A stretch of DNA of 64,000 nt. Origin: Sinohyriopsis cumingii (taxonomy: Eukaryota; Mollusca; Bivalvia; Unionida; Unionidae). Below the pieces are notes generated by a model. That model was not told the origin of the DNA. It saw only the letters and a list, made by a program, of their open reading frames with translations, and did no database searches. A program made the position numbers and the translations under genes. Each line of letters begins with the position of its first letter. The first letter of the stretch is position 1. Location of the stretch: positions 42,901,117-42,965,116 of the forward strand of contig CM068839.1 of assembly GCA_028554795.2 (NCBI GenBank). The letters are read 5' to 3'. Positions 31,255-51,021 of this stretch are shown here, piece after piece.

Positions 31255-31683
31255 AGTAGTGAATGGGGATACCCTGGAGACAATTGGAATTACCATTACA
31301 GGACCCCTTGGGACAATCTGGAGACAATGGAAATTTAACATGGGGAAAAATCATGGGACAATCTGGAGACAATGGAAATTTAACATGGGGAAAAATCATG
31401 GGACAATCTGGAGACAATGGAAATTTAACATGGGGAAAAATCATGGGACAATCTGGGGGCAATGTAAATTTAACATGGGAATAGATTGTGGGTCTGTTGA
31501 GTGACAAAATGGAACAGGGTCGGGACCCTATTTTAATAAGGTCCCGACCTGAGGGGTCTATGGAAAGGGAACAGGGGAGAGGGATAGAACACACACACAC
31601 ACACATATTAAATAAAAAAAGGGGTAGGCAATTGAAAGTCGATCTCTTTTCGAGAAATGTGGGTGGCCCTGAAAAGGGCCTTT
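31255..31683. repeat. Polinton 1 left terminal inverted repeat
   Basis: Matches the reverse complement of 50583-51021. It contains an outer unique part, about 3.5 copies of a ~45-bp minisatellite (gggacaatctggagacaatg plus gaaatttaacatgggg), a 15-bp-arm palindrome around gggtcgggaccctatttta, a short (CA)n, and at its inner edge a histone-type stem-loop on the minus strand. Confidence 0.95.
31665..31680 (-). terminator. Histone-type 3' stem-loop L1 (inside left inverted repeat)
   Basis: The minus strand reads GGCCCTTTTCAGGGCC: a 6-bp stem with a TTTC tetraloop, the form of the metazoan replication-dependent histone mRNA 3' end. It is preceded by AAA and followed by ACCCA, then a purine-rich CGAAAAGAGAT resembling a U7-binding downstream element. 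It lies 25 nt past the stop of the 193-aa gene. Confidence 0.85.
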
Positions 31684-31704
31684 GAGTTTCTTCTTCTTCT
31701 TCTT

Positions 31705-32286
31705 CTAACTCCTCCACTTCTTTATCCATCCCCTTATTTTTTCCATCATTCCTTTCTTCTTCTTCTTTTCATTTTCCGGTATCCAGTCCGGGTGACCCAT
31801 GGCTCGGAACTTCTGTTGGATTTTTATCCAGTTAGCGTTCAGTTTCTCTAGTTCTTCCTTTTTCTTTCTATTTTCTTCTTCTTTTCTATCTTTTGCCCAC
31901 CTGTCCTTTATTTTCTCCACTTCTTCATCTATCACCTTTCTCATCTTTTCTTCCCCTTTTTTCAATCTTTCAACACTCCTTTTGACAAAGGGACACTCTG
32001 ACCTTTTTTCTATCTCTTCCAAAAACCTTCTTACTTCTTCTACCTTCTCCAGGGCCTCTTTTAATGTCCCCACTCTGACATAAGGGGGATTTATTAGCCC
32101 TCTCAGTCTCTTCACTTCTTCTTCAATTAATCCTTCTATCATCTCCCTGGCTAATTTTAGTTCGTTCACGTAGTGCACACTGGTTCTTAACCTCCAATCT
32201 CTTTCAATCCTTTCAACTCCATATTCACCATCCACCATCCAAAAATAAACATGCCTTAAATCATTAAACAGTTGGGACACTTCCAT
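31705..32286 (-). CDS. Terminal-arm gene L1: 193-aa charged helical protein, no known function
   Basis: An intact frame from an ATG that follows a TATA-like CTATAAGA at about 32,333 on the minus strand. The product is highly charged and predicted helical: an N-terminal segment rich in leucine and aromatic residues (MEVSQLFNDLRHVYFWM), a central EEVKRLRG / ALEKVEEVRRFLEEIEK coiled-coil-like part, and a Lys/Glu-rich tail ending in tryptophan-containing IRGWIKKW. No family is recognised. Two copies of a shared ~28-bp upstream element lie 59-153 nt upstream. The gene ends in a histone-type stem-loop inside the terminal repeat. It may belong to one family with L2 and L3. Confidence 0.75.
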   Translation of the reverse strand: MEVSQLFNDLRHVYFWMVDGEYGVERIERDWRLRTSVHYVNELKLAREMIEGLIEEEVKRLRGLINPPYVRVGTLKEALEKVEEVRRFLEEIEKRSECPFVKRSVERLKKGEEKMRKVIDEEVEKIKDRWAKDRKEEENRKKKEELEKLNANWIKIQQKFRAMGHPDWIPENEKKKKKGMMEKIRGWIKKWRS

Positions 32287-32344
32287 CTTCTTTTTTTATT
32301 CCTTAGAATGGTGCGAACGACGAACTTTGTGGGTTCTTATAGTT

Positions 32345-32439
32345 AAAGCGCGGACGTGATGGAAAACATCCCCCTAAAACAAAATTGATCTTACCTAGAT
32401 CATTACTTAAAAAGCGCGGACGTGAAGGAAAACATCCCC
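32345..32439 (-). promoter_or_regulatory. Shared upstream elements of L1 (two copies)
   Basis: On the plus strand, 32345-32374 and 32411-32439 both read aaagcgcggacgtga(a/t)gg followed by aaaacatcccc. Near-identical copies precede L2 and L3. Their position just upstream of the TATA-like boxes suggests a transcription-factor site or viral enhancer. Confidence 0.7.
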
Positions 32440-32752
32440 TACTTTTCTCATTTCATATGATCTACTATTCACATACGCTAACCAACAATAAACTAACCCA
32501 AAATCTACCATCCACACACCCAAATCATTAAAATCAAATCCCAATAATCTACTATCCACACTAACCTATGCTACCGCTTATTAACACACAATCATATACA
32601 TAAACTTATACACTCACACTAGGAAAAAGAGTCAGTGTTTATATTTACACTACTCTACATACACACATTGGCAAATCGATTACTATTTCTTTTCTAGAGT
32701 ATTGGGTAGCCCTGAAAAGGGCTGTTTGTTTTTGAACTCCAGTGACACCTGG
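32440..32752. repeat. Left-arm intergenic module, copy 1
   Basis: About 280 bp of AT-rich sequence containing ctaccatccacac, acacacaatcatatac, gagtcagtgtttatat and acatacacacattggcaaat in that order, matching 33216-33500. With the stem-loop and promoter elements it marks tandem duplication of a whole promoter-gene-3'-end unit. Confidence 0.8.
32708..32723 (-). terminator. Histone-type 3' stem-loop L2
   Basis: The minus strand reads AGCCCTTTTCAGGGCT, then ACCCA and a downstream AGAAAAGAAAT. The outer pair is A-T instead of G-C; loop and flanks match the histone type. It lies 30 nt past the L2 stop. Confidence 0.8.
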
Positions 32753-33061
32753 TTAATGATGGCACCTTCCAGGCCTAGCACCACACACACATCTTCTTCC
32801 CCAGTCTCCTTTTACTTTTTTTCTTGAAAGCTCAGAGGGAGGATGATTGGCTTCAGCACCCCAATCCTCTGTCTCTGGTATCTTGTAAGCCATCCTCTCT
32901 CCTATTTTCTTTTCCTCCTCTTCCCTCTGTCTTCTCTCCTCCTCTTCCTTCTTTATTCTTTCCTCTTCTACTATGACCTCCGCGGCCAGTTCATTTAACA
33001 GGCGTCTGACATATTCCAGATGTATCTGAAGTTCAAGAAGTTTGCTTATTCTGGTATTCAT
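32753..33061 (-). CDS. Terminal-arm gene L2: 102-aa charged helical protein, no known function
   Basis: An intact frame. The start is set by a TATA box (AGTATAAATT, about 33,115 on the minus strand) and short leader. The N-terminus is MNTRISKLLELQIHLEYVRR, followed by a Glu/Lys/Arg-rich helix (about residues 30-55) and a tail with CVCGARPGRCHH. No family is recognised. The gene is flanked upstream by two shared elements (33121-33150 and a diverged 33191-33213) and downstream by its own histone-type stem-loop. Similar length of leader, promoter and 3' module suggests common descent with L1 and L3, though protein similarity is faint. Confidence 0.7.
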   Translation of the reverse strand: MNTRISKLLELQIHLEYVRRLLNELAAEVIVEEERIKKEEEERRQREEEEKKIGERMAYKIPETEDWGAEANHPPSELSRKKVKGDWGRRCVCGARPGRCHH

Positions 33062-33120
33062 TGTCTTGTTAACGAATGAACAGGGTAGCTAGACTGCCAA
33101 GCGAGTTTCAATTTATACTA

Positions 33121-33213
33121 AAAGCGCGGACGTGAAGGAAAACATTCCCCTAAGACCAAAGTTATATTACCTAAATCATGACCAAACAACGCGCGGACCT
33201 AAAAGAAACACTC
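33121..33213 (-). promoter_or_regulatory. Shared upstream elements of L2 (one good, one diverged copy)
   Basis: 33121-33150 reads aaagcgcggacgtgaaggaa then aacattcccc. 33191-33213 keeps gcgcggacct and aaaagaaaca. The arrangement repeats that upstream of L1. Confidence 0.7.
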
Positions 33214-33215
33214 AC

Positions 33216-33500
33216 TTTTTATATTACCGATCACTATTCTAAAAAGTTTTATTAAACAAATAATATACTATCCATATACGCAAAGCAATCCAATCAAACC
33301 CCAAATCTACTCTCTTAATCTACTATCCACACAAACGTACGTGAGCACTTACAAACACACAATCATATACACAAACACATACACTCGCACTATAAAAAAA
33401 GAGTCAGTGTTTATATTCACACTACTCTACATACACACATTGGCAAATGGATTGTTATTTCTTTTCTAGAGTATTGGGTAGCCCTGAAAAGGGCTGGTTT
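33216..33500. repeat. Left-arm intergenic module, copy 2
   Basis: Matches 32440-32727 in order and spacing, ending in the stem-loop at 33480-33495. Confidence 0.8.
33480..33495 (-). terminator. Histone-type 3' stem-loop L3
   Basis: The minus strand reads AGCCCTTTTCAGGGCT, ACCCA, then AGAAAAGAAAT, identical in core to L2. It lies 57 nt past the stop of L3, with a homopolymer-rich spacer between. Confidence 0.8.
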
Positions 33501-33552
33501 TTTTTTGGTTTTTTTTTTTTTGCTTGTGCAAAGTTGAAGCTATGGCAATCTT

Positions 33553-33913
33553 TTAGTTTCTAAGAATGCGATGTCCTCTGACGATAGACTTTCTGACGAT
33601 AGGTCTGCTTCTTCGGAAAGAGAAGAAGAACTTTTTGGTGTCGATACGACAATCGACAAAACCTCTGTCAGGTTCAGGTTGCTGCTGCTGCTGTTGCTGC
33701 TGTTGCTGCTCTCTCTGCTGTTTCTGAAGTCTGTACTTCTCTGTCCATTCTTCTTTCTCCCTGTTCACTTCTTCTCTGAAGAGCTCTTCTAGCAGGTCTT
33801 CAGTGACTTTTAGCATTCTCACATTCTCTATCTCTTCTGGCTTCGGTATCAGACTGTCTCACCCTGTGCAAATTCACGTAGGCTTCGTTTAGCTTAGCTA
33901 GTTTGGAGCACAT
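33553..33913 (-). pseudogene. Terminal-arm gene L3: charged helical protein with poly-Gln, one frameshift
   Basis: Starts at an ATG (33913) with MCSKLAKLNEAYVNLHRVR. That frame closes near 33,806, while an overlapping frame (33822-33553) continues with KVTEDLLEELFREEVNREKE, a Gln run of about ten, and a basic tail. A single-nucleotide shift between about 33,815 and 33,835 would explain this. Splicing is less likely because no intron borders are seen. Upstream lies the shared element at 33976-34004 and a CAGTCTA start-region motif also present before L2. No known domain. Confidence 0.6.
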
Positions 33914-33975
33914 CTTCGTAGGAGGATGAGTCGACAATGGATGGTTAGACTGGAGGCTGCCCCGGCTTTAAAGTC

Positions 33976-34004
33976 AAAGCGCGGACGTGAAGGAAAACAT
34001 CCCT
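33976..34004 (-). promoter_or_regulatory. Shared upstream element of L3
   Basis: aaagcgcggacgtgaaggaa followed by aacatccct, the best match to the L1 and L2 elements. It sits about 60 nt upstream of the L3 start codon. Confidence 0.7.
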
Positions 34005-34131
34005 CCACGGTTTTCGAGCCGGGACGTTCAATGAGTGCCATGAGAGGGATAGTAAGAAGTCAAAGAGCATAAATCAAAATTCTTATAGCCAAACAAAAGA
34101 CAAAGGCATTTTTTTTCAAAACACAACATTT

Positions 34132-34137
34132 TTTATT
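34132..34137 (-). terminator. Polyadenylation signal of the capsid cluster
   Basis: AATAAA on the minus strand about 90 nt past the protease stop, in AT-rich sequence. No histone-type stem-loop occurs here, unlike the terminal-arm genes. Confidence 0.6.
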
Positions 34138-34227
34138 CAAAATCACTTAACACTAACAAACAACTCTAAGATTTTTTAACAATAACTCAACAATATAACA
34201 TCAAACATTTTTTTTTCAATTAACACT

Positions 34228-34788
34228 CTACTTTAAACAGGGCTGACAACGTTGTGAATGAAATTGTGATTTCCACTGTTGGAAGTCATTAGGCCATTGA
34301 CGGACACTACGTTTCCTAGCTTGAGACAAAAGATAAGCATAATGGTCACAAAACCATTGATCTACTTTCACATCATTTCTAGAAGAAGAACGAGGATCAA
34401 AATGAGTCACTAAATGTTCTAAGGAATAGCCCAGGCTGCGATGATGCAGAAAATACACACAGTACTGTCCACACACCAAGGAATCTGTGCCTTGTAATTT
34501 CACATTATTGAATCGGGTGGTCTGAGAATATCTTCTCATAAAGTCAATGATATCGTCTTCCAAAGGGGGCAATCCATACGAATCAAAATATTCCACACAT
34601 CCTTCTTGAGGAAAGTAGACGGCTACCCAGTGGGTTCCTGGGAGATGACTGTCGTCCGTGTTGATGACATAAGCTAGATGGTCTTGAGGTTTGCGATGAG
34701 GGAGTTCATCTTTAGTACAGACGACAGGATTCCAAGAAGCCGTGTACGAACTGTGGTTCAAAAGGTAATAAAGTTCCCAGGTATCCAT
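34228..34788 (-). CDS. Adenain-like cysteine protease (virion maturation)
   Basis: Intact 186 codons. It belongs to the adenovirus-protease/Ulp1 fold used by Polintons to process virion proteins. Visible catalytic residues: His53 in GTHWVAVYF, Asp69 in VEYFDSYG, Gln99 in VKLQG, and Cys106 in VCGQYC, all in the expected order and spacing. It is the last gene of the capsid cluster, starting 22 nt after the 167-aa gene, with no TATA box between. A Lys/Arg-rich C-terminal tail follows the fold. Polinton 2 carries the same gene with a stop at codon 4. Confidence 0.95.
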   Translation of the reverse strand: MDTWELYYLLNHSSYTASWNPVVCTKDELPHRKPQDHLAYVINTDDSHLPGTHWVAVYFPQEGCVEYFDSYGLPPLEDDIIDFMRRYSQTTRFNNVKLQGTDSLVCGQYCVYFLHHRSLGYSLEHLVTHFDPRSSSRNDVKVDQWFCDHYAYLLSQARKRSVRQWPNDFQQWKSQFHSQRCQPCLK

Positions 34789-34810
34789 GTTTTGTGTGTT
34801 TTTTTCTTCT

Positions 34811-35314
34811 TCACAGGTAATAATAAGTCATCAATTCGATCCTGACTTTTTGCTTGAAAATATCTGACAAATAACGGTTTCTTCGCTTCGTTTCCCCACT
34901 CTGATTCAGGAGAGCTTCGATACGATGGATCTCTTGAGTGGTTAATGGTGGACAAGAATGTTCACGCAAGTCTTTATACCACTGATGCAACACGACTTCG
35001 TCCGAGATGAGACTCCAAGCTTCGTCTAGATACTCGTCCAATTTTTCTTCTTGACTCAGCATTAGGCATTTATCATGTTGAATTTGACTGGGATGATCGT
35101 TTTGACATCCACAGCAATCTTTCTTGATCAATTCCGTCATTTTTTCGACCAAGTGTTTGACAAAACAGGAGACTAAATGGGCTTCTTGTTCTGGCCATCT
35201 TGACTTCATCATGATAACTTCTTCGTCTTTGTCTTGAGATTCTTCTTCTCCGGTCTCCTCACATTCCATCTCCAAAGTTTCTCCACTAGGTAAAGAGGGA
35301 TAACAGTCTTCCAT
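34811..35314 (-). CDS. Conserved Polinton protein, 167 aa, unknown function
   Basis: Intact frame starting 5 nt after the major capsid stop. An acidic N-terminus (residues 5-32) is followed by a helical part with a Cys/His cluster, CCGCQNDHPSQIQHDKC (about residues 67-83), which could bind zinc, and a C-terminal helical region. Polinton 2 retains it intact (63171-63674) with mostly conservative changes, so it was probably under selection. The position between major capsid and protease suggests a virion or assembly role (inference). Confidence 0.8.
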   Translation of the reverse strand: MEDCYPSLPSGETLEMECEETGEEESQDKDEEVIMMKSRWPEQEAHLVSCFVKHLVEKMTELIKKDCCGCQNDHPSQIQHDKCLMLSQEEKLDEYLDEAWSLISDEVVLHQWYKDLREHSCPPLTTQEIHRIEALLNQSGETKRRNRYLSDIFKQKVRIELMTYYYL

Positions 35315-35319
35315 GGCTT

Positions 35320-36645
35320 CTAATAGTCTAGAATGACTTCTCTCAAACTGTTGATTTCTATGGTATTGTCAAATTCTGCATACAGGAGGACGTTCACTGT
35401 GTGATCTGGAGGTGGATTTGCAAACTGAAGTTCCACACGAATCTGACCCGATTTTATAGGGTGGAAATGTCCCTCGTCGCTGCCTTGTTCTGGAGTGAAA
35501 TCAAAACCCCACAAAGCATAGCCTCCTGCATAATCGTCGTACGAAATACCGTGACTGGTGTTGGTTCCTAACTGTCCCGGGGCTTCGTACAGGGACAAGT
35601 ACGATCTCAAATAATTCTTCGCGACACCAAAGTTGGGCTCAAAGGGTCGGGTACACAAGGTCTTGCCGTCGCGACTGACTTCGATCTTGGACACATTGTA
35701 ATGTTGAAACTCAAAAGGATTTTGATCGTGGGTTCCGTTGAAAGCTGAATTCCTGACGATACCAACAATCAAACGTTTGGGTAACTGTCCTTGGAACAGA
35801 TGATCTTCGATCATAGATCGCTGTCCAGCGGGAATGGTGAACGTTTTCACTTCTACGCGTCGTATCAGATACTTGGCGGTCGTTCTGCTCAACGTCTGAC
35901 TGACGTCGTTTCCCACTTTAGGTAACACTTCCACACGATGCACGTAAAGTCGGGCTTCTTGAATGATAGTTTTGTATTCATTGGCATGGGCCATCAAATG
36001 GAAAGCGGCACTGCAACGATTCAGTCTCAGACGGGTATCCACCCCGTTCAGCAAATACTTTTCTTGTAACCACATGTCCAAATGCAAACGATCCATCAGT
36101 TCTAAACTTCGCCCTTGCAGAATTTTCTTACGACGGTCGTTAAACCCCACATTGTGAGGATTGTCATCTTCTGTCAGGACTGTGTCGATAAACGTGCCTA
36201 CACCTGCCGTGTCAGGTTTCCATACCACGCAAGCATCCAGATGAGTATTCTTGGCTTCTTTTCCGTACGTCAAGAGATTTTCCAGGTAGGCACGATATGG
36301 GTAAGTATCCATGCTGCTGCTGACCAGTTTGTTATTCAAGTACAAGTCCACTTCGCTGCACAAGGAATGCATGAAATTGTTGACAGGAGCTACTCTAGCA
36401 TCGCCTCCTGGATTGGTGTTGTCCGTTTTGATAACTTTCACTTTCAAATACAGGTAACTGCTATTCAGATCGATGTAATCTTCGGGTTGTCCTTTGATTT
36501 CAAACTCGATGGGAGCGGAATCCGTCAAAGAGGAGACGGGATAAAATTCCACCCACTGGGATTCTTGCATGGTCATCATGGTCGGGGGCATGGCAAACAG
36601 ATCCAGTTCCGACTTGGAACAGGCGCAAGACTCTCGGTGCATCAT
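35320..36645 (-). CDS. Major capsid protein, double jelly-roll (hexon-like)
   Basis: Intact 441 codons. The N-terminal block SLTDSAPIEFEIKGQPEDYI followed by DLNSSYLYLKVKV is the typical first strand region of Polinton/adintovirus major capsid proteins. The middle contains FMHSLCSEVDLYLNNKLVS and AYLENLLTYG, the C-terminus LRVELQFANPP-type and VLLYAEFDNTIEI strands. It forms the trimeric capsomer. It begins 13 nt after the pVI-like gene and ends 5 nt before the 167-aa gene. The upstream in-frame ATG-ATG gives two possible starts one codon apart. The copy in Polinton 2 is broken. Confidence 0.95.
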   Translation of the reverse strand: MMHRESCACSKSELDLFAMPPTMMTMQESQWVEFYPVSSLTDSAPIEFEIKGQPEDYIDLNSSYLYLKVKVIKTDNTNPGGDARVAPVNNFMHSLCSEVDLYLNNKLVSSSMDTYPYRAYLENLLTYGKEAKNTHLDACVVWKPDTAGVGTFIDTVLTEDDNPHNVGFNDRRKKILQGRSLELMDRLHLDMWLQEKYLLNGVDTRLRLNRCSAAFHLMAHANEYKTIIQEARLYVHRVEVLPKVGNDVSQTLSRTTAKYLIRRVEVKTFTIPAGQRSMIEDHLFQGQLPKRLIVGIVRNSAFNGTHDQNPFEFQHYNVSKIEVSRDGKTLCTRPFEPNFGVAKNYLRSYLSLYEAPGQLGTNTSHGISYDDYAGGYALWGFDFTPEQGSDEGHFHPIKSGQIRVELQFANPPPDHTVNVLLYAEFDNTIEINSLREVILDY

Positions 36646-36658
36646 TTTTTTCTCTTTC

Positions 36659-37083
36659 TCAATAATCGAAAACGTCTAAGTCTCGAACGGTTCTTCTTTT
36701 CTTTGCCTTTCTAGCTTTAGACGTGTGAAGTCTGGTGAAAGGGTGTTTTCTTCGTCGTCTCTTTCTGCCTTGTCCTTGCTGAATGCTTGACTCTGTAGCG
36801 TGCAGGACATTTATATGTGTGTCTCGTCGGCCCAAAAGGTCTTTGCCCGTTTTCAGCAAGACATTTTTGCCTGCCCTCATGAAGGCTTCTTTAGGATTTT
36901 GTTTGTCGATGATGACATTTTGGAGAAATTCTTTGCCTTGTGTCAGTACCGCATCTTTCAAGGCGTGCAATCCGCGTGTCACCATCGGTTTCAACACCGG
37001 GGCCACCGAACGAAGGCCGATTTCTGCATATCTCCTAAACCGTGTCCTCGCTGTCGAGCAACCCCTCGGTACACTGGATACAT
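36659..37083 (-). pseudogene. pVI/pX-like basic minor virion protein, one 1-nt deletion
   Basis: The gene starts with ATG at 37083 (MYPVYRGVARQRGHGLGDM), three bases after the minor capsid stop. This start form is common to a small Polinton virion protein. Near 37,013 one T is missing relative to Polinton 2, which breaks the frame. The remaining 115 codons (37006-36659) encode LKPMVTRGLHALKDAVLTQG, then a Lys/Arg-rich RKRRRRKHPF and a basic C-terminus ending FDY. A membrane-active or core-cementing role as in adenovirus pVI or pX is a family-level inference. It overlaps nothing and sits 13 nt before the major capsid gene. Confidence 0.75.
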
Positions 37084-37086
37084 GAC

Positions 37087-38019
37087 TTACGAGTCGTGAG
37101 AGAACCGTTTTCGAAAATGGAGTTTCACCGTGACTTTTCCTTTGGTGAATGAAATATTTTGTTCCAGATCTCCTTTTATAGCAATGTTGACCGTGTCCAA
37201 ATAAGACTTACTGACAGGCAAATAGTGAGGATGTAAAAATTCGCGGTGAACGTGGTAAGTGTTTCCACCTTCCTCGTCAGCGGTCGTGGCAGAATCCACT
37301 TTGAAAGGAATGACACGCAGTAACGGCACAGAGGTGTGTCCCACCACGTTGTACTCCACCACATCGGAGTACACAAACATCAAATTCAGTCCTTGGTTCA
37401 GTTCTACCGGGGCACGAAATAACTTGCTAAAAGACTCGTTGTCGTAAGTGATTCGTAATTCGTTTTTCTTGAGCATGGCCTTTCTCATGTCCATGTCTCC
37501 GCCCAACATGTCAAACAATTCAGGACAAAATAAAATGGACACGATTTTACTCCCGTCAAATTTCATCAAGAAGCGACGAGCTGCTTTGTGGTATTCCATG
37601 GTGACACTTTTTTTGACACTTTCCAAAGCTTTCAGAAAAACGATATTAAACCTGGAGGTTATGGTGCTCACCAAGTGTTGACCACTAAAATAATAGCCTG
37701 GGGAAACGAACAAGTGATAGGTGATGTACTTTTGATTTTTTGTGCCAGGGGTTTTCTTGTCATATTTGACATGGGTATCCAAGTACTGTTGCAATTGTTC
37801 GTCATGAACTTCCACATCAAAAAAATTTTGATTGGGAAGGACATTGAGGACTTGAGTCGGGTGAATGATTTCTACTAAAGCCACTTCCCAATGGGCTTCG
37901 TGATCTAATGGGATGGTCTGAGGTAATTTGGCCGTGTAACAGCACAACGTGTTCTTGGGAAACACCTCCATGGAACTGTCACTGGGTAAGGTTAAGTAAA
38001 ATTGGTTTTGGTGACTCAT
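37087..38019 (-). CDS. Minor capsid protein (penton base, single jelly-roll)
   Basis: Intact 310 codons. N-terminal QFYLTLPSDSSMEVFPKNTL and HWEVALVEIIHPTQVLN are the recognisable signature of Polinton penton-like proteins, which form the capsid vertices. The C-terminus, RPVLHPHY-type and VTVKLHFRKR, is strand-rich. It starts 78 nt after a small leader frame (38098-38277) and ends 3 nt before the pVI-like start. The Polinton 2 copy is nearly identical but has an in-frame TGA. Confidence 0.92.
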   Translation of the reverse strand: MSHQNQFYLTLPSDSSMEVFPKNTLCCYTAKLPQTIPLDHEAHWEVALVEIIHPTQVLNVLPNQNFFDVEVHDEQLQQYLDTHVKYDKKTPGTKNQKYITYHLFVSPGYYFSGQHLVSTITSRFNIVFLKALESVKKSVTMEYHKAARRFLMKFDGSKIVSILFCPELFDMLGGDMDMRKAMLKKNELRITYDNESFSKLFRAPVELNQGLNLMFVYSDVVEYNVVGHTSVPLLRVIPFKVDSATTADEEGGNTYHVHREFLHPHYLPVSKSYLDTVNIAIKGDLEQNISFTKGKVTVKLHFRKRFSHDS

Positions 38020-38097
38020 AATTCCAGAGTTCTGTGGCTGTCCGAGGGGTTACTGGACGTCAGAGGCGTGTCTCCGCCCAAAATAGGGTTGTTGTTG

Positions 38098-38277
38098 TTA
38101 TTGGAGTGGTGACTGACACTGGCACTGGACACAAGGTTCCCGTGGTTCCCGTTCGAGGAGAATTTCAGTGAGGGATTGGGAAGCACACCACACCCACAAG
38201 GGTTGTTTTTGTAAATCTTGCGGAGAAGAACTATGTGAAGGAGTGGTCGACGTAGCTGCGTCTGTGTGAAAGGGCAT
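38098..38277 (-). CDS. Small leader ORF of the capsid cluster, 59 aa
   Basis: The first ATG (38277) after the TATA box at 38292-38299. It encodes a 59-residue peptide with a Ser/Thr/Pro-rich N-terminus and a CVQCQCQSP C-terminus. No family is recognised. Polinton 2 preserves only its 3' half, because the big deletion ends inside it. It could be a short structural protein or an upstream ORF that tunes translation of the minor capsid gene. Confidence 0.45.
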   Translation of the reverse strand: MPFHTDAATSTTPSHSSSPQDLQKQPLWVWCASQSLTEILLEREPREPCVQCQCQSPLQ

Positions 38278-38282
38278 GATGG

Positions 38283-39390
38283 TCACTTCTTTTTATAGTC
38301 GATGACTTGTGAAGCGTCGATCCAAGAATCAAAACTGGGTGGATATCCTTTCCAACGTACTTTGACTTCTTTGACACGTCGTTTGCCCACTTTACTGGTT
38401 CTGCGTTCGAGAATGCTTTCGATGTCGTACAAGTTGTCTTTTTTTTTTGACACGTTGTAACTCGGGTAAGTAAAACGTTCCTTTGAGCACTTCTCCGTTC
38501 ATGTCTTCCAATTTATAGACGGCAGGATGACGGCCATGCACTCGTCCAGTGACACGAAACAATTCCGTCGTCCAGTTAGGTAAGTAGCCTTTGTCGAAAG
38601 TGCGTTTGGTTTTGCCAATGCGTACCCAATCTCCTACGGCCAACACTCCACTTTTCTTGGGGACAGCCCTCGTCGGGGACGTACCAAACAGGAGCTCAAA
38701 CACCAACACTTCGTTCTCGGGAGTCACTTCTTGCGGGGCACTTCCAATGCTTCGATGGTAAGATTGGTTGTACGCTTGCACCAGGTGCGGTAAGATGTCG
38801 ATGTACTTCAGAGTGTGGTGATGCGTGAAATATTTCCACATGCGTTCTTTCAAAGTGCGTTGAAAACGTTCCACGATGCTGGCTTTGGTTTCAGGATTCT
38901 CGGTGGTAAAAAAATGAATGTCACGTTTCTTTAATTCTTTTTGGAAAGCTTGGTTCAGAAATTCGGTATCTTTGTCCGTTTGCCATCGAGGAGGGTGACG
39001 ACCACTTTGTTTCAACACTCGTTGCAGGGCTCGCACTAACTCGCTGCTCGATTTGGAAGTCAAGGGTACGACCCAGGCAAATTTGGAAAAGACGTCGACG
39101 ACACAAAACAAATATTTGTAGCCACGATTGTAGCTGGCCAAATGAGAGACATCGGCTAAATCGGCTTGCCATTGATGATCGATGCCTTCCACTCGGGTGC
39201 GACTTCTGGAAAACTTGCGTCGAATGGGTTTGTGTAAAGTGTAAGTAGCTTGTTCTTGTGACCATCGTTGCACTTGAGGTAAACGGAGACTTTTCAGTTG
39301 CGTTTTGGCAGCACGATAGAATTTTTGAACTCTTGCGTAATCTGCAGGATGCGAGGGATCGTAGTAAATCCTGGCTAACACTTTTTCCAT
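38283..39390 (-). pseudogene. DDE integrase with C-terminal chromodomain, frameshift at an A10 run
   Basis: Retrovirus-type integrase that inserts the element. From the ATG at 39390 (MEKVLARIYYD), the core carries Asp77 in WQADLADVS, Asp129 in QTDKDTEF and Glu164 in SIVERFQRTLKER. It is followed by the SH3-like part (VGDWVRIGK, GRVHGRHPAVYKLED). The frame shifts at a run of ten A (plus-strand T, 38439-38448). Beyond it, another frame down to the stop at 38283 encodes a chromodomain: YDIESILERR, VRWKGYPPSFDSWI. Chromodomains on Polinton integrases guide insertion to marked chromatin. The ten-A run may be a sequencing or replication slip, or a translational slippage site. Polinton 2 lacks the gene. 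Confidence 0.92.
38290..38299 (-). promoter_or_regulatory. TATA box of the capsid cluster, embedded in the integrase stop region
   Basis: The minus strand reads GACTATAAAAAG. It overlaps the last codons of the chromodomain frame and lies about 15 nt before the leader ATG. No other TATA-like box is seen between here and the protease. Confidence 0.65.
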
Positions 39391-39404
39391 TTTGTGTTTG
39401 TGTG

Positions 39405-43095: not shown

Positions 43096-43227
43096 GACAG
43101 ACTGTTTTTATACTCTCTTTTTTCGGATGCAATACAAGTACTTTCTAGCCAGACATCTTCGTTCTCCAGTAGGAAATCTAAATCTTGCATACTGTAACCT
43201 ACACTTCAGAGTTCGTTTAGGAGTTTC

Positions 43228-43557
43228 CTATTCCGCTAAGTAGATTCCACGTAAAATATGTTGGTAATCCTTTAACTTGTCTTCCTCAATGCGTTGCTCT
43301 AGGTGAATCTCGAAGTAACCAAAATTATGAACATGTCGATCATTGGCGACCTCAAAGTTTTGAACAATGTCTGACCACTGAAACAATTTCTGACGAATCA
43401 GTTCTCTTATACCATTCAGGTACCAGTGGTCAAAGATCTGGTGACGTAACGGATGCAACTGTTCTTTACGTTTGACATGTATTTTGACCAGCTCTCGGTA
43501 AATGCGTTCTCTCAACTCCACAGGCAAAGCACGAATGTTCTCTTGTAAAGTATCCAT
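43228..43557 (-). CDS. Small helical protein, 109 aa, LPVELRERIY type
   Basis: Intact frame MDTLQENIRALPVELRERIY..., predicted mostly helical, with RELIRQKLFQWSDIVQNF in the middle and HILRGIYLAE at the end. No family is recognised. It appears paralogous to the broken gene directly upstream (43592-43971), sharing the LP-x-EL..IY..V pattern and an FQWS(D/E)I motif. The LP-x-EL start loosely recalls an F-box-like helix, but evidence is too thin for a call. It lies between the BIR gene and the Bcl-2-like locus, in the part of the element that carries accessory genes. Confidence 0.6.
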   Translation of the reverse strand: MDTLQENIRALPVELRERIYRELVKIHVKRKEQLHPLRHQIFDHWYLNGIRELIRQKLFQWSDIVQNFEVANDRHVHNFGYFEIHLEQRIEEDKLKDYQHILRGIYLAE

Positions 43558-43591
43558 GAATAGGTCAGTCCGTACAATTCACAATCTTCTC

Positions 43592-43971
43592 CTAGAGCAA
43601 AAAGTAATCCACATAGTGAGTAATTTCTGACCACTGAAATTCAGGGTAACGTCCAAGAATCTCACTGAACTCTTTTGATGTAAACGGTCTAGAGTGATAC
43701 AATAGGACGAATGCACACTTGACCCAAAGAAATCTAACACACTGGTTGACTTTTTTCACTTTCCTCTTGTGAATTTCTCGGCACAAAAGTTCTACAGTCA
43801 CCCATTGAGATTTCACTCTGGCAAGTCCCTGCCAAACTTCCTTGTAAATCTCACTTGCAGTTCTTTAGGTAATGATTCAATATCGTTTTTGAAATGAAGT
43901 TTAAATACCGGTCTCGGTGATGTCCAACATTTCACTCCTAGCCAATCTGGTTTCTTCTTCGTCAACGACAT
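43592..43971 (-). pseudogene. Paralogue of the 109-aa protein, broken by one frameshift
   Basis: ATG at 43971 (MSLTKKKPDWLGVKCWTSP) runs to DIESLPKELQV. The related frame then continues from about 43,853 with EIYKEVWQGLARVKSQW to FQWSEITHYVDYFLL. A one-base loss near 43,853 separates the parts. Motif order matches the intact gene at 43228-43557, so this is a tandem duplicate. Confidence 0.55.
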
Positions 43972-43982
43972 GGTAAGTTACT

Positions 43983-44622
43983 TCAATGTCTCGGTCCCAC
44001 TAAGGGTAAGTAATGACAATTCGGTGACCATCTAGCATGTTCTACGTAGGCCGAATCTTGCGGTTCCCAGTGGTGAAGTGACACACTGCAACTAAAGCAC
44101 ATGACTTTATCTCCTTCGCCCAAGTAGAAAAATCCGGCTCTGGCTAATTCTTCGGGGGTCGGGCCTCCCAGATACTTAGGCCATTTTCCTTTGAACGATT
44201 GAAGACGATTTTCAAAGTCGCAGTATTCCGACAAACGCACAGGAAACGAATATTCGTCTTTCACAGGTTCGTTTCGATGAGGGTTGGGTGACATAGACAG
44301 GAGTTTGCTCAGGGCTGGATGACATCCGTAGGGGGGGGGGTAGACGTGAAAGTGAACATCCACCTTTAAAACGAAACTCAGTAAAGTGTCCAAGAGGACG
44401 AGCAGCATCGCTTTCGCATCCCTCAGGTTTGACACGCACAGCATCACTTTCCATGATAGGGGTAGTGAGAACAAAGTTCCCATGATGCTTTACGGCATCG
44501 CTAAGGTCACAGCGTACAGCATCGTTCCCATCGCAAGGCTCACAATCGCATTCCACTTCAGAAGCCCCACACTTGAAATGTGCCTTTCAAAACTTGTTTT
44601 GTGTTTCTCTGAAAGTATTCAT
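43983..44622 (-). pseudogene. BIR-domain inhibitor-of-apoptosis-like protein, with a stop and a G/C-run frameshift
   Basis: The C-terminal frame (44483-43983) contains one full baculoviral IAP repeat: RLQSFKGKWP, LARAGFFYLG, then Cys119, Cys122, His139 and Cys146 (numbering in that frame) with exact C-x2-C-x16-H-x6-C spacing. BIR domains bind caspases or IAP-binding motifs; here it would block host apoptosis (inference). The likely start is ATG 44622 after a TATATAAAAAGG box (44686-44698). A TGA at 44587 and a frame change at a ten-G run (plus strand 44331-44340) interrupt the N-terminal part, which is Cys- and Asp-rich. No RING domain is seen. PolB lies just upstream. Confidence 0.85.
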
Positions 44623-44654
44623 CTTGTTCGCTTGGTCTTGGTAGTCACAATGAA

Positions 44655-47600
44655 CTATCGATCTTGCCTAGGGTTCCTTTTTATATACAGACCAATACCG
44701 ACGTGTCCATACAGTAAGGTGAAATGATTGGGAAGTCGCACTCGCTTCTGGTACACGATTTGATAGACTTTTTCCAAGGGTCGACTGACGATGTGGTGAT
44801 TGGGTAAACGTACAATCTTGTTGGGTTGATAGGTGGTCACTTTAAAGTGTTCATCCTCTCCAGATTGCAAGGCTTCTTTCAATACCCCAAAGTTGACCAC
44901 ACGACTGGTACGATAATTCAGAGTCAATCCTTTCACTTTACACTTCGTGTGCACTTCTCCTTGTGGGACCCGGTATTCGTAGCCGTAATTTTTTGGACCG
45001 CCACTGACGAAACTTAGAATCTTGTCGTCGGGATGCTCGTCTGTCCAGGCTCCTAAACGGTCTCCTTCGATGTCAGGGTGCTGTTGACTCGGGTGATGGA
45101 TGTAAATGCAACTGTCGGTGTCAAAGTACAGGACGCGTTCCCCTAACAGTTCTAAAGCTTCGTACAATTTTAAGCGAGCATGAGCTGTCACGTAAGCCGC
45201 AATGATGACATTTCCAAAAGGGTCGTCTTGTACAAAGTCCAGATCTTCTTCATAATTGACCAAGATCAAATCCTCGCGAACGACGTCCACGTGTTTCATG
45301 AATTTGGTTTTGTCGTGAATCATCTGAAAGTAGCGGGAAGGTTCTGTCAAATACTCCGTCTTGGGTAAACACGGACGTTGTGCCATTTTACCCCACAAGC
45401 AATTTAACATCACTTTGGCAAACGATCGCCTGCCTTCGTTTTTCTCGATGTGATCTAAAGAGATGCCTTCTTGTGCCCAGTATTTCTCTTTGAATGTCTT
45501 TTGGTCTTCGGGAGTGTGACACCAGGAAGGATAGCCACTGGCTTCTTGTTTCAGTTTCAAAAAGGCATCCACGTAGTCAGCGAAAATGCCTTTCTGCATG
45601 GGGTCACCCATGTGGTATTGTTGTGTCTTGGGAAAGTGACAAATTTCGTACACTTCTAACAGTTGATATCCGATGTCCAGAGCTTTGAACAATTCTACGC
45701 TGACCCAGGTTCCCGTCAAGGCCCGTTCTTCCTGGGTGTGCTGACAAGGTTGGTCTTGGTTGCACGTTTCGGCACAAGTACGGCACAAAGGAAACATCAG
45801 TTTGCCTTGGCAATGGTGAGGTAAGACGGGATGGTACAAGTCCGTGGGAGGCAAAACTTTGCACTTGATCAAGCCTTCGTATTGTCGAATGTTTTTCAGG
45901 TCGATGTGTTCCGTGAACAATTGTGGGTGTCCTGCAGGAAAGCGACAATATTTGCACACGTAGGGATACAGCGAACACACGTCCAAGTATTTGATTTCTT
46001 CTCCTTTCTCTTCGTCGGCTTGGTACAGCAAACAGGTGGCATTGGTCCTTCCTCCTTACAAACTATCCCTCGGGTTCAGCGGGTCCATGAACTGGTAACT
46101 TTCCACGAGGCGTTTAAACTCGGGATCGGTTTTCAAACGGTGATCGTACTCGTGTTCCCACATTTCCACCACTTGGTATCCTTCCTGTTCTAACTTTAGG
46201 CGTCGCTGACAAGTGGCCTGGTACAAGTCTTCCATGGTTCGTTGTAAAACTGATTTTTAGTGCCACGGTCAGGGTAACAGACGGGACATCCGTGAAATAA
46301 GTAACCGTTAAACTCGTACACGATCTCGGGGTTTTCTAAGTCCCAGCCATCGACCGAATACGTTCCGATGGTCTTTTCGCCTCCACCGTTGCGGGCATGC
46401 TGAATCCATTTGTCTTCCTTGTCGCACAAGTAATGTAACCAGCGTAGGGCTTTGACCGAGTATTGACGTTTGACATAGTTGGTCGTTTGAGGACTGATGA
46501 CAGCCACGGTGTTTTCAGGCATGAATCGTTGCCGGTACACTAAGGAACACGCTTTGGCAATGGCGCAAGCTTCTTTCAAAGGATTGACCCCTCCGTGTTC
46601 CATGAACAGTTCTCGAAATTTTCCACAGCAACGTCGTAAAATGTCCACGTCGGAACGACAATACTTTAACATTTCTTCCTGAAAGTCGAAAGGGTCGGAG
46701 GCGTGAGCCTGGTACCAAGCGTAGAAAGCTTCTCGTTGTTCGAAACGCATGTTGTCAGGGTCGTAATATTGAGCCTCAGGTAAATCGGGTAGAACGGCGT
46801 GTTGATTGGCTTCCGTATTGAAAAAGTGTGGAAAGTACCCTTTAGCCATTTCTGTCATTCCAAACGTTTTAGGCATTCGACTCAAAGGCATGGCTAAGTA
46901 ACTCATCGAATCTTTAAACTGCACTTGTCCCACTTGCATGAAAATGATTTTGGCTCCGTTCAAAGTGACTTTAGGACGCTCGGTGCCTTGTTCCGTATAG
47001 TATCTCAAAAGAAACTGTCCATCGTATCCGGAGAAATTGTGAGCCATCACTGTGGCATGACGATGACAATCTCCGTAACGTTCGATGTCCTCTTGCTCCA
47101 CGTCTTGTCGATGGGATCTAAGACCCATTGGGCAAAATCGGCTAGCGTGTTCGGTCCCCGAAAGATTTTTTCACGTCCTCCAGGAATCTTGCTGCAGTGA
47201 GGGCAATGACTGAAGGTAGGTTCTTGAATGCACTTCTCGTACGCTCGATGAGCCACGCAGAAATTAGGAACGTGAATGGCAGTCTCTTGCATGCATTCGA
47301 AATCGAAAAAGATGAAATTGCCTTTCTTCTTGTGACCATCCTTTTTCTCTGGTGGGGGTTGGTATTTTTGCACGTAGCATTGGTGTTCCAAGTCCACGAT
47401 GTGGTGACAAATGTGACATTTTTTCTTTCCTGAACATACGTGTGCCTTTGCACTGTTGGTACGTATGCCTTGTCCACAAGTAGGGCACAATCTCAGCAGT
47501 TGACAAGCACATTTCTGCTGTGAACCTTGCGTCTTGAGATGTTGCTGGTAACAGGCAGGGCTGACAAACGTGCGCAGACAAGCTGGACAATGCACTGGTC

Positions 47601-48711
47601 CTTCGCTCAGACAGGGTGGAGAGGCCAAACATCCTGAGCATTTCGATCCGCAATGCTTGTGTTGCTCTCGATTGTTATAACCATAGTCACATTTCTCGCA
47701 GTAATAACCGTCTCCCAGGAATGCAGTGATACTGGTAATGGTATCGAAATGGTCATCGTGATAATAGACATGAATGTATTTTCCGTCCTTAAAGTCTTTC
47801 CCTCGAAACAACAGAGGTCCGCGCACTACTTGAAGGTAGACTTTCAAGGTGTATCGTGGAGCTAGGACATCTTGCAATTTTTGCATTTCAGGAATGCCAC
47901 AGGGTTTGTCTTTGGGCAAGTCGGCTTGTTGCAACAGGAGTTCTGCTTCACTTTGTTGTTTGGCTCGGTCCGATTTTTCAATAGTTTTCCAGGCTCTTTT
48001 CCATTCTACCGTGTCGTTTTTGTTGGCATAGGTTCCTCCCACCACGATAGCCCTGACTAAACACATCTGGTCTTGAGGGTTGTGAATTCGGACGAGACTT
48101 GTTTTGGTGCTGCAAAGCTCGTCCACCAATAACATCTTTTTGCGTCCAGTCCCTTGAGGAGGAGAGACGTGGGTCATGTCCAGTGTGGCTTTTCCATCGG
48201 TGATGTCAAACTGGTCATTGGATTGTTGTACGTGTTGAATCTTGTCCATGAATTTGGAAGCGGTCAATTTTGCAGGGGTGCTAAACTCGATCCAAACAGG
48301 GGATTTCAAACCGTCGTGTTGTATGGAAAGTCTCAAGCGATCGTCTTCTTTGGGTTGACATTGTCGCTTGAGTGTGGTGAGTAAAGAATCCCACACCCCG
48401 GTGATGAACCCTTCTGCTTTCTCTAACGGTACTTCGGACTTGAAATCTTTAAATTTCACCCTGTATTTGTAAGCCGTGGTTCTAAATTTTCTAGAGGAGA
48501 GCTTTTCTGTCTCTCGAATGGAATAGTACTTTTCAGGGTTTTCTAAGGGTGGTGAACTTTGTTTAGAGGGTTCGGATTCTGGTTCACTCATGTCCTCTTC
48601 AAAATCACTGGCATGAATTTGTGCCAAGACTTCAGCTCTGGTACGAGGCGATAGATCACGTTTCTGCCTCTTACTTTCTTCTTTCTTCTCAAATGAATTG
48701 GATCGTTTCAT
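44655..48711 (-). pseudogene. Protein-primed type-B DNA polymerase (PolB), three interruptions
   Basis: Replicates the element. From ATG 48711: a basic N-terminus, a DQMCLVRAIVVGG motif near residue 215, several Cys-pair zinc ribbons (residues about 338-455), Exo I FFDFE at about 470, Exo II NFSGYD and Exo III YCRSDVD. Then come the palm motifs YLDVCSLYP, KVMLNCLWGKMAQ and FDTDS, ending near 44655. Breaks: a one-base deletion near 47,098, another in a T run near 46,247 (both relative to Polinton 2), and an in-frame TAA at 46056-46058 next to the GG of the linker motif equivalent to Y-x-GG, which Polinton 2 shares. It is divergent from the zinc-knuckle gene across a 134-bp promoter. Confidence 0.95.
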
Positions 48712-48845
48712 CTTGAGTGAAAAACGTCAAATGACTAAAATTTAAACAGCATGGACTAATTTATAGTCATGGCAGACCAGCGTATATAAAAGGGTGTGTG
48801 TCTTGTCCTTTCACTATTTATTTCACTCTCTAAACGAGCACAACG
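48712..48845. promoter_or_regulatory. Bidirectional promoter PolB / zinc-knuckle gene
   Basis: Contains GTATATAAAAGGG at 48782-48794 for the plus-strand gene and, on the minus strand, GACTATAAATTAG near 48,752-48,765 for PolB. Both have short leaders. The same arrangement is kept in Polinton 2 at 56820-56955. Confidence 0.75.
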
Positions 48846-49286
48846 ATGGAAGAGACTAGCCAAATCGTACGTTTCATCAGAGCTTTGCGAGGGGTCATTA
48901 GAAAATTTTCTTCAGACCAGCCGTCGGACTACTCTCCTTCTTTTCGAGTTAAAAGTGAAGGTACTTGCTATATCTGTGAGAAGAAAGGGCATTGGTCTTC
49001 AGAGTGTCCAGACCGTCAAAAAAGAAAAACAGGGGTTAAAAGAGACAAAAGTCAAGATACCTGTTATTATTGTCAAGAAAAAGGACATTGGTCTCCAGAT
49101 TGCCCAAAAAAGAAACAAGAGGAGTCAGAAGAAGAGAGGGATTCTTCAGAGGAAGAAGAAGAGGAGGAAGATAGCAGACAGGTGAAGAAAAAGAAACAGA
49201 AGAAGAAAAGAAGAAGGGAAGAAAGTGAGGAGGAAGAGGAGGAAAAGACTGTGACGGTGAAGAAATTTAAAAAACAGAGAGACTAA
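48846..49286 (+). CDS. Two-CCHC zinc-knuckle protein with acidic/basic tail, 146 aa
   Basis: Intact. A helical N-terminus (MEETSQIVRFIRALRGVIRK) is followed by two CCHC knuckles with C-x2-C-x4-H-x4-C spacing: Cys41-Cys44-His49-Cys54 and Cys73-Cys76-His81-Cys86. The tail alternates Glu/Ser-rich and Lys/Arg-rich stretches. It likely binds single-stranded nucleic acid, as in retroviral nucleocapsid or cellular CNBP proteins (inference). It is transcribed divergently from PolB and followed by AATAAA at 49368-49373. The Polinton 2 copy keeps only the first knuckle. Confidence 0.85.
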   Translation: MEETSQIVRFIRALRGVIRKFSSDQPSDYSPSFRVKSEGTCYICEKKGHWSSECPDRQKRKTGVKRDKSQDTCYYCQEKGHWSPDCPKKKQEESEEERDSSEEEEEEEDSRQVKKKKQKKKRRREESEEEEEEKTVTVKKFKKQRD

Positions 49287-49367
49287 ACAGGGAGACAGAA
49301 GAAGTGAATGTACTTTTTAAAGTGCTCTGTTGTGAATTGTGAATTGGATTGTAACTATCTATAAAAG

Positions 49368-49373
49368 AATAAA
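49368..49373 (+). terminator. Polyadenylation signal after the zinc-knuckle gene
   Basis: AATAAA 82 nt past the stop codon in an AT-rich stretch. Together with 34132 it shows that core genes use ordinary polyadenylation. Confidence 0.6.
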
Positions 49374-49531
49374 TTAGGGATAAAAAGGTAAGTGTCTTTG
49401 AGTTTTGATTTTAAATAAGAAGCTACACTCACGCACTCATATACACGTAATATAGGGGTAAAATGTTTTTTTTGTTGGTTTTTTTGAGTTATTGGCAATT
49501 GAAAGTCTATCTCTTTTCGAGAGAAGTGGGT

Positions 49532-49547
49532 GGCCCTGAAAAGGGCC
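49532..49547 (-). terminator. Histone-type 3' stem-loop R1
   Basis: The minus strand reads GGCCCTTTTCAGGGCC, preceded by CCAAA and followed by ACCCA and a downstream CTCGAAAAGAGAT. It lies 25 nt past the second stop (49573) of the R1 gene, the usual spacing for such ends. Confidence 0.88.
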
Positions 49548-49572
49548 TTTGGTTTTTGGTGTAGGGGTGAGT

Positions 49573-50115
49573 TTAAGCAATCAACTTTAACTGCCTTAAG
49601 CCTTTGCCACGGCCGAGGCCTACTTCTGATGATGATGATTTGGTTGAAATCACTAAGGGTGGTACGGTAGGCTTAGTCACAGGGTTGGCGTGTTTAGCTC
49701 GGGAAGGTCGTATTCTCTTCGGTCGTGATAAAGAAGTCTGATACATTTGTTTCAGACTTCTTAACTCCGCTAAAATGTCTAACAGTACCGTGACCGTTTG
49801 ATTTTCACCCTCTTGTTTCTTTGCTGCTTCTTCTTCTTGTTTTTTTCTTACCTCTTCTTACTGTTGTTGCTGTAAAAGAAAAGCTTGTTCCGCTTCCTTT
49901 TGTCGTTGTATAAATTTCTCCAATTCTTCTTTCTGTCTCTGTCTAAAATTCTCCACGTGCGGTAATGAAGGTGACGAAGGTTCCGGAACAAATTCTTGCG
50001 AGGTAAGAAAATCCACAAAATCCCAATGTACCTCTTCTGAAAGTAAGTCCGGGTTCCCTTGGGTGGTCTCCACTGCTGGTGCACCCCAATGGATCGTTTT
50101 CTGAGTTTCCGTCAT
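49573..50115 (-). CDS. Terminal-arm gene R1: Gln/Glu-rich protein, 85 aa or 180 aa across an in-frame TAA
   Basis: ATG at 50115 opens MTETQKTIHWGAPAVETTQG. A Glu/Gln/Lys-rich helix ends QQQQ at TAA 49858-49860. The same frame then stays open for 94 more codons with protein-like content (VTVLLDILAELRSLKQMY, a Pro/Arg-rich part, a Gly/Lys-rich end) to TAA 49573. The second stop is 25 nt before the stem-loop, matching the other terminal genes, so the long form is probably the original product. Polinton 2 has the same TAA, plus an extra TAG at codon 5. Either an old nonsense mutation or stop-codon readthrough would fit. Confidence 0.65.
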
Positions 50116-50334
50116 GTTGAATCACTGTCGCATAGATCGACTGCACACAGGCGCTAGCGAATCTATATAGACCACGTGACGTCACAGACTGTTCTCTTCG
50201 GATTGGATGCGGGCTGACTGAATTTTGTAACGCGTGTTTGGATTGGTGAATGAACTCAATCCGTTTCAATCCTTCCTCTACCTATAAATAAGCGCAGTTC
50301 ACTGTATTGATTCACCTGTTCTCGGCGCCTCAAG
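50116..50334. promoter_or_regulatory. Bidirectional promoter R1/R2 with E-box and CRE-type sites
   Basis: Contains CACGTGACGTCA (50173-50184), an E-box CACGTG overlapping a CRE TGACGTCA, plus TATATAG on the R1 side (near 50,163-50,170) and TATAAATA at 50282-50289 on the R2 side. Polinton 2 keeps both in the inverted region 55654-55866. Confidence 0.75.
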
Positions 50335-50565
50335 ATGTGGACCACAGTCGAATCATCAACCCTTGTGTCTTCGATGATGTTCAGGACGGACATACCGATG
50401 TATGTCCGATCCGAATGGACAGTTGTCCATAGGACCGCCAGCAACCTATGGATTCGTAGGATTTACGTGGAGAGGCAAGGATGCCTCAAAAGAGTCCTGA
50501 TTTACGGTCCTACAGTGAGACGAAGCCTAAGGACAAGAAGAAGTCACAGATGCCCTTCATGTTAA
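50335..50565 (+). CDS. Terminal-arm gene R2: 76-aa Arg-rich protein, no known function
   Basis: Intact frame MWTTVESSTLVSSMMFRTD... with a basic C-terminus ending RRSHRCPSC. TATAAATA lies about 50 nt upstream and a histone-type stem-loop 22 nt past the stop. Polinton 2 retains it intact (55653-55423). By eye the two copies differ at several synonymous third positions and at only a few residues, consistent with past selection on the protein. The coding sequence also holds two conserved inverted repeats (50387-50408 and 50415-50430), so the DNA or RNA may have its own role. Confidence 0.65.
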   Translation: MWTTVESSTLVSSMMFRTDIPMYVRSEWTVVHRTASNLWIRRIYVERQGCLKRVLIYGPTVRRSLRTRRSHRCPSC

Positions 50566-50582
50566 GGGCATATATATATACC

Positions 50583-51021
50583 CAAAGGCCCTTTTCAGGG
50601 CCACCCACATTTCTCGAAAAGAGATCGACTTTCAATTGCCTAAGCCTTTTTTATTTAATGTGTGTGTGTGTGTGTGTGTGTGTGTGTTCTATCCCTCTCC
50701 CCTGTTCCCTTTCCATAGACCCCTCAGGTCGAGACCTTATTAAAATAGGGTCCCGACCCTGTTCCATTTTGTCACTCAACAGACCCACAATCTATTCCCA
50801 TGTTAAATTTGCATTGCACCCAGATTGTCCCATGATTTTTCCCCATGTTAAATTTCCATTGTCTCCAGATTGTCCCATGATTTTTCCCCATGTTAAATTT
50901 CCATTGTCTCCAGATTGTCCCATGATTTGTCCCCATGTTAAATTTCCATTGTCTCCAGATTGTCCCAAGGGGTCCTGTAATGGTAATTCCAATTGTCTCC
51001 AGGGTATCCCCATTCACTACT
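50583..51021. repeat. Polinton 1 right terminal inverted repeat
   Basis: Reverse complement of 31255-31683 with small differences: a longer (GT)n and minor substitutions in one minisatellite unit. It ends CACTACT against the target duplication. Confidence 0.95.
50587..50602 (+). terminator. Histone-type 3' stem-loop R2 (inside right inverted repeat)
   Basis: GGCCCTTTTCAGGGCC with CCAAA before it and ACCCA after, then CTCGAAAAGAGAT. It is the inverted-repeat partner of L1, so the repeat supplies the same 3' end to both outermost genes, each reading outward. Confidence 0.88.

Follow-up and report, generated by a model that had tools for sequence, protein, structure and literature searches.

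Candidate histone-type 3' processing signals behind the arm genes of a Polinton in the bivalve Sinohyriopsis cumingii

The window analysed here, a 64,000-nucleotide (nt) stretch of the genome of the bivalve Sinohyriopsis cumingii (GCA_028554795.2, contig CM068839.1, positions 42,901,117 to 42,965,116), contains a Polinton, here called Polinton 1, and part of a second, inverted Polinton that starts near 55000 and continues beyond the window end (Table 1). The hallmarks of the group are present in Polinton 1, namely DNA polymerase B (PolB), an rve integrase, terminal inverted repeats (95.7% identity over 442 aligned columns) and a 6-bp target duplication; it may also resemble the Polintons/Mavericks (adintovirus-like) in its protease-like gene. 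Small genes occupy the arms of both elements, and each is followed by a stem-loop of the type that ends replication-dependent histone mRNAs. Five of these, in Polinton 1, had been noticed in a preliminary description made from the letters of the window; two additional ones, at 55388 (-) and 56435 (+), lie in the second element.

Table 1. Features of Polinton 1 and of the second element in the window (Histone3 gathering cut-off, 34 bits; aa, amino acids)
Feature	Position	Strand	Score	Remarks
Polinton 1	31255..51021			19,767 bp; ends AGTAGTGAATGGGG; target-site duplication TGCGTT at 31249-31254 and 51022-51027
Left terminal inverted repeat	31255..31687			inner edge is the stem-loop cassette
Stem-loop GGCCCTTTTCAGGGCC, histone-type	31665..31680	-	40.8 bits	tail ACCCA; purine block 31642-31651
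Arm gene, 193 aa	31705..32286	-		K/E-rich; 3 metagenome protein relatives, 56-59% identity
Upstream element ATGTTTTCC(A/T)TCACGTCCGCGCTTT, four copies	32345..34000	-		33976-34000, 33121-33145, 32411-32435, 32345-32369
Stem-loop AGCCCTTTTCAGGGCT, A-U-closed	32708..32723	-	33.5 bits, E 3.7e-6	purine block 32685-32694
Arm gene, 102 aa	32753..33061	-		
Stem-loop, A-U-closed	33480..33495	-	29.9 bits, E 8.8e-5	purine block 33457-33466
Arm reading frame, 87 aa	33553..33816	-		
Protease-like gene	34228..34788	-	PF00770, E 0.022	under cut-off; without stem-loop
Integrase	38392..39390	-	PF00665 (rve), E 5.6e-13	
DNA polymerase B region	44655..48711	-	PF03175	several reading frames; match in 2/3 pieces
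Zinc-knuckle gene	48846..49286	+	PF00098	without stem-loop
Stem-loop GGCCCTTTTCAGGGCC	49532..49547	-	39.2 bits	purine block 49509-49518
Arm reading frame, 57 aa	49573..49746	-		preceded by 85-aa frame 49858-50115
Arm gene, 76 aa	50335..50565	+		
Right terminal inverted repeat	50580..51021			
Stem-loop GGCCCTTTTCAGGGCC	50587..50602	+	41.8 bits	purine block 50616-50625
Stem-loop, second element	55388..55403	-	36.9 bits	purine block 55365-55374
76-aa arm gene, second element	55423..55653	-		
57-aa arm frame, second element	56236..56409	+		
Stem-loop, second element	56435..56450	+	39.2 bits	purine block 56464-56473

All five stem-loops first reported in Polinton 1 were recovered, in position and strand, by a pattern search that gave seven matches in the window, a number reached by none of 100 window shuffles. 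Each of the seven folds into six pairs and a four-base loop (16 nt). The Rfam Histone3 model (RF00032), scanned over the whole window at its gathering cut-off, gave five matches, all at element stem-loops (36.9-41.8 bits), and a permissive scan over 30500-64000 added both A-U-closed copies, slightly under the cut-off; E-values reach 3.1e-9. The tail ACCCA does follow each Polinton 1 stem-loop, as first described (6/7 overall, with 55388 carrying ACTCC). The purine block GAAAAGA(G/A)AT, placed some 10-20 nt downstream in the preliminary description, starts exactly 13 nt past the stem-loop in all seven and includes AAAGAG in five. A CCAAA 5' flank, said to precede several copies, is exact in two of the five in Polinton 1 (49532 and 50587; 31665 has TCAAA) and in both second-element copies, making 4/7.

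The idea that the seven copies represent seven independent events was rejected, since duplication accounts for both the terminal-repeat pair and the A-U pair. A single cassette, carried at each element end on the inner margin of the terminal inverted repeat, gives the copies at 31665 and 50587; those at 32708 and 33480 have a 192-nt 3' stretch in common.

All seven stem-loops are sense to an arm gene, 19-57 nt past its stop, and none is antisense. The two distances in the second element are 19 and 25 nt; those in Polinton 1 are 21-57 nt, where 22-57 nt had been reported. If every frame of 57 aa or longer is admitted, 9% of position-strand choices in both elements would show such placement by chance. 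A blastn comparison between gene units found common 3' blocks, mostly 36-68 nt long; the block shared by the A-U pair measures 192 nt, and the end pair has its entire terminal repeat in common. Upstream repeats were common to the left-arm units, and nothing matched within the coding parts; in the second element, identity drops sharply past the cassette. The 76-aa gene of Polinton 1 differs from that of the second element by five silent codon differences and three amino acid changes. The predicted model of the 193-aa protein is all-helical, of low confidence (mean pLDDT 57), and the frames upstream of the 33480 and 49532 stem-loops are short or interrupted in the window.

The arms carry other repeated signals as well. 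One or two copies of ATGTTTTCC(A/T)TCACGTCCGCGCTTT lie ahead of each left-arm gene, with none elsewhere in the scanned part (beyond 30500), and the right-arm gene pair has CACGTGACGTCA between its members in place of this element. The adjoining arms of the two Polintons are 95-99% identical, and their outer terminal repeats (55000-55360 vs 50671-51021) are strongly diverged.

For comparison, the histone genes of the host (genome of 2.9 Gb in 1138 contigs) were located by a Histone-domain search in which 150 of 662 candidates were scored. They stand in tandem arrays with units of ~8.3 kb (contigs C14, C310, C531 and others). One unit that was read carries H3, H4, H2B, H2A and H1 on the same strand, with H1 linked to the core histones. 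A stem-loop follows the stop of all five genes at 27-38 nt, and GAAAAG follows the stem-loop at 13 nt (H3, H4, H2B) or 14 nt (H2A, H1); the H4 distance was read by eye, since an earlier run of A made the script return 2. Across 30 host loci, two of which overlap the unit read, the H3 end was seen 30 times and the H4 end 29 times.

The arm genes are like replication-dependent histone genes (RF00032) in their 16-nt stem-loop, the purine element at 13-14 nt, the short distance from the stop and the sense orientation, and the host H2B stem-loop is identical to that of the element over all 16 nt. They differ in being part of a mobile virus-like element and in their products, since a Pfam search of five arm frames (the 57-aa frame left out) found no histone family. 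The details of the signal also differ: the element has a UUUC loop and an ACCCA tail, whereas the loop is UUUU in host H3 and H4 and UUUA in H2A, and none of the five host tails (ACACA, ACAAA, ATACA or ACTTT) is ACCCA. In mouse, U7 forms base pairs with AAAGAG of the purine block (PMC7026596). Judged by its letters, the element matches the host signal where U7 should pair, and its loop and tail are near the Rfam consensus; scores reach 44-46 bits for the best genome copies, compared with 35.9 for the H3 end and 37.7 for the H4 end of the host. Host H2A carries ATTTTGCC at +32, the position of a third box, ATT(T)GCC, in the element, and the other host histone genes have related letters there by eye.

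Genome-wide, the Histone3 search produced 589,472 first-look candidates, of which 75 were scored, all above the cut-off; the count is therefore a minimum, and the sample was not randomly drawn. No listed histone gene coincides with any of these 75 places, and the only contigs shared with such genes are C14 and C2, where they are separated by 31 Mb and nearly 4 Mb. All were taken as 2-kb pieces. The stem-loop was intact at 72 of them, and six more in the pieces brought the total to 78 (70 GGCCCTTTTCAGGGCC, 4 AGCCCTTTTCAGGGCT, 3 GGCTCTTTTCAGGGCC and 1 AGCCCTTTTAAGGGCT). By tblastn, a sense arm gene lies no more than 250 nt upstream in 68 of the 78, compared with 13.6% for random places in the same pieces. 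The remaining ten gave no tblastn match to the arm proteins of the window or to their metagenome relatives; seven of these have a sense K/E-rich frame of 54-132 aa with a KIRSWWRNRRN-like tail 15-18 nt upstream, which is not found in the other three. The purine block stands at 13 nt in 76 of the 78, the tail is ACCCA in 76 and the CCAAA flank is present in 53. The third box, about +32 after the stem-loop and outside the Rfam model, occurs in 73 copies compared with 3% in shuffles. Three stem-loops lie 247-250 nt from an opposite-strand zinc-knuckle match, the same tail-to-tail arrangement of genes as in the window.

Conservation of the stem-loop in these copies proves nothing, because the copies were found through it. 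This bias is avoided at neighbouring arm genes reached via the stem-loop of another gene, 26 such unselected sites in total. The 57-aa gene offers 28 possible places, of which 20 were taken and 18 aligned (two not counted); for the 102-aa gene, 8 of 22 places were taken and all aligned. The six standard pairs are kept in 14/18 sites of the 57-aa gene, letter-perfect in 13, and in 5/8 sites of the 102-aa gene. Substitutions of the 57-aa gene, counted against the window copy, number 0/72 in the loop, 1/108 in the 3' stem, 6/108 in the 5' stem, 3/90 in the tail, 2/176 in the purine block and 2/108 in the third box. Its cassette as a whole has 14/662, compared with 147/1347 in the non-coding DNA past the stem-loop (spacer, between blocks and beyond), 91/3111 in coding sequence and 13/365 in the 3' untranslated region (UTR) ahead of the stem-loop. 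The CCAAA flank is variable at these sites (14/77 changed, 13 gaps). For the 102-aa gene, the cassette has 7/239 vs 66/487 in non-coding DNA, and the stretch from -200 to -27 has 211/1204. Relative to the DNA downstream of it, the cassette is therefore conserved about five times more strongly; in the 57-aa gene, its conservation is roughly on a par with that of the coding sequence and the short 3'UTR ahead of it. Among 12 distinct rows (from a hand-chosen set of 13), three have pair 1 changed on both sides from G-C to A-U. Two pairs in all are changed on both sides; 32 of 500 shuffles attained this number, and none attained the covariation score.

SLBP binds the histone stem-loop, the U7 small nuclear ribonucleoprotein (snRNP) pairs with the downstream element and CPSF73 cuts between them (PMC7026596). 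We consider it probable, at roughly 85%, that the arm mRNAs of the Polinton are matured by the same host SLBP and U7 snRNP via a portable histone-type 3' cassette, a reading that builds on the established signals, host match, sense placement and conservation. The preliminary description had already proposed histone-type 3' ends, and this is now stronger because the host histone ends match, the cassette is kept in unselected copies and the genome copies are in sense. Arm genes of this Polinton lineage would carry a cassette copying the processing signal of host replication-dependent histone pre-mRNA, made up of a stem-loop with a UUUC loop, an ACCCA tail, a purine block 13 nt on with the core of the host downstream element, and a box near +32. 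Once host RNA polymerase II has transcribed the genes, the stem-loop would be recognised by host SLBP and the purine block by U7 snRNP. Cleavage by the CPSF73 complex some 5 nt past the stem would then release arm mRNAs that are short and carry no poly(A). The holo-U7 machinery, in its active form, belongs to S phase (PMC9756948). Arm expression would then be tied to DNA replication through the S-phase activity of U7 processing; at least two non-arm genes carry ordinary AATAAA ends. Possible benefits to the element may include coupling to S phase, export and translation without poly(A), and a short terminator near the element end.

Several points weigh against this reading. SLBP and U7 binding, cleavage, the lack of poly(A) and S-phase timing are steps that we infer from the signals. 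The sense count leans on small frames, and the fit falls to 5/7 stem-loops when frames of at least 75 aa are required and to 2/7 at 100 aa. The stem is damaged at 4/18 and 3/8 of the unselected sites of the 57-aa and 102-aa genes, respectively. At 6/108, the 5' stem of the 57-aa gene is more variable than its coding part (91/3111), and the conservation of its 3'UTR ahead of the stem-loop comes close to that of the cassette. Fisher tests of cassette vs non-coding DNA gave 8e-14 (57-aa gene) and 1.5e-6 (102-aa gene), values that are overstated because the copies are related; counts for the 5' flank (14/77 and 3/39) did not enter the tests, nor did those for the 3'UTR of the 57-aa gene ahead of the stem-loop. 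The Rfam U7 search of the host genome gave no match for U7 snRNA, though no control was detected either, and a U7 sequence pattern was found there at background level (41 vs 53). Seven Polinton integrase loci from other records (bacterial records of metagenome-assembled genomes, taken as contaminants) contained no histone-type signal, which is weak evidence with five of them shorter than 8 kb; such ends may not be general among Polintons and set this element apart from those relatives. Finally, poly(A) hexamers do not divide cleanly between the two groups of genes. AATAAA lies 81 nt past the stop of the zinc-knuckle gene and 90 nt past that of the protease-like gene, and neither AATAAA nor ATTAAA was found within 400 nt past the stop of the other eight of ten non-arm genes, which would be consistent with genes in a close run. 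Within 400 nt downstream of the stem-loops, there is one AATAAA (226 nt after 33480) and there are two ATTAAA (127 and 136 nt after 31665 and 50587). With hexamers past 3/7 stem-loops and none past the stops of eight of the ten non-arm genes, a clean two-class split is not borne out.

These same hexamers would serve an arrangement with mixed ends, in which the histone-type signal works and downstream poly(A) signals are also used, so that outside S phase a fraction of the arm mRNA receives poly(A), as happens in some histone genes. Human H2AC18, for example, can be processed either way (PMC9756948). However, neither hexamer was found within 400 nt past 4/7 stem-loops, and we regard this arrangement as unlikely.

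Alternatively, the element might once have acquired a histone 3' end that is now copied without function. The cassettes are mutually related, two of them via the inverted repeat, some arm frames are interrupted, and some of the stems at unselected sites are damaged, as noted above. A functionless copy is nevertheless at odds with the roughly fivefold lower rate of change of the cassette relative to the compared non-coding DNA at those sites, with the compensated change in stem pair 1, and with gene units that are alike in their 3' blocks and left-arm upstream repeats but not in their coding parts. We hold it to be very improbable. More improbable still is a DNA-level signal of the element end, for replication, packaging or integration, that merely resembles a histone end: two of the five Polinton 1 copies do form the inner edge of the terminal repeat, but the other three lie outside it, the strand tracks the gene in 7/7, and the purine block and its spacing are the same as in host histone genes. 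Chance, or a hairpin of the general terminator kind, has a negligible likelihood, given E-values to 3.1e-9, shuffles that never reach seven and the match to host histone ends, even though looser stem-loop patterns have exact matches in 16 viral-contig loci, all below the Histone3 cut-off.

Processing of the arm mRNAs by SLBP and U7 could be part of a wider two-class code of 3' ends, a proposal to which we give even odds. Arm genes would be matured by SLBP and U7 without poly(A), only in replicating cells, and core genes would be polyadenylated; the cassette would derive from a host-type histone gene, and the histone locus body may be the site where the transcripts are made or processed. According to one description (PMC6303110), replication-dependent histone mRNAs are unique among known animal protein-coding mRNAs in that a 3' stem-loop replaces the poly(A) tail. 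If our reading is true, the signal behind several unrelated genes of a virus-like element would end this exclusivity, and a parasite would be exploiting the cell-cycle gating of histone supply. Such genes could then be missed by RNA-seq that selects for poly(A); they would also offer natural non-histone test substrates for SLBP and U7.

Literature searches found no account of histone-type ends on Polinton genes. One qualification to this novelty comes from a 2025 survey that counts six stem-loops of the histone 3'UTR in genomes of polinton-like viruses and virophages (PMC12220804), the same kind of feature in related viruses; the section that reports them gives the count without place, strand, downstream element or function. 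Among IMG/VR viral contigs, no relative was found by the window integrase, an integrase alignment or an arm-protein alignment, and stem-loop patterns were present in 0, 4 and 12 contigs, the 16 loci mentioned above. A protein query made from the read-through frame of the terminal repeat, for relatives of the cassette, gave no match.

As for the rest of Polinton 1, named oyster and amphioxus proteins are among the best 120 of 2077 relatives of its integrase, and a chromodomain is often present in these relatives. No capsid or packaging ATPase family was matched by Pfam among the element proteins. There was one weak phage head-protein match (E 0.12). A gene with a BIR (inhibitor of apoptosis) domain lies within the element at 43983-44483 (-), with E 8.1e-24. 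Two tRNA-like matches of 33.9 bits, at 28461-28533 (-) and 51981-52043 (-), are perhaps short interspersed repeats.

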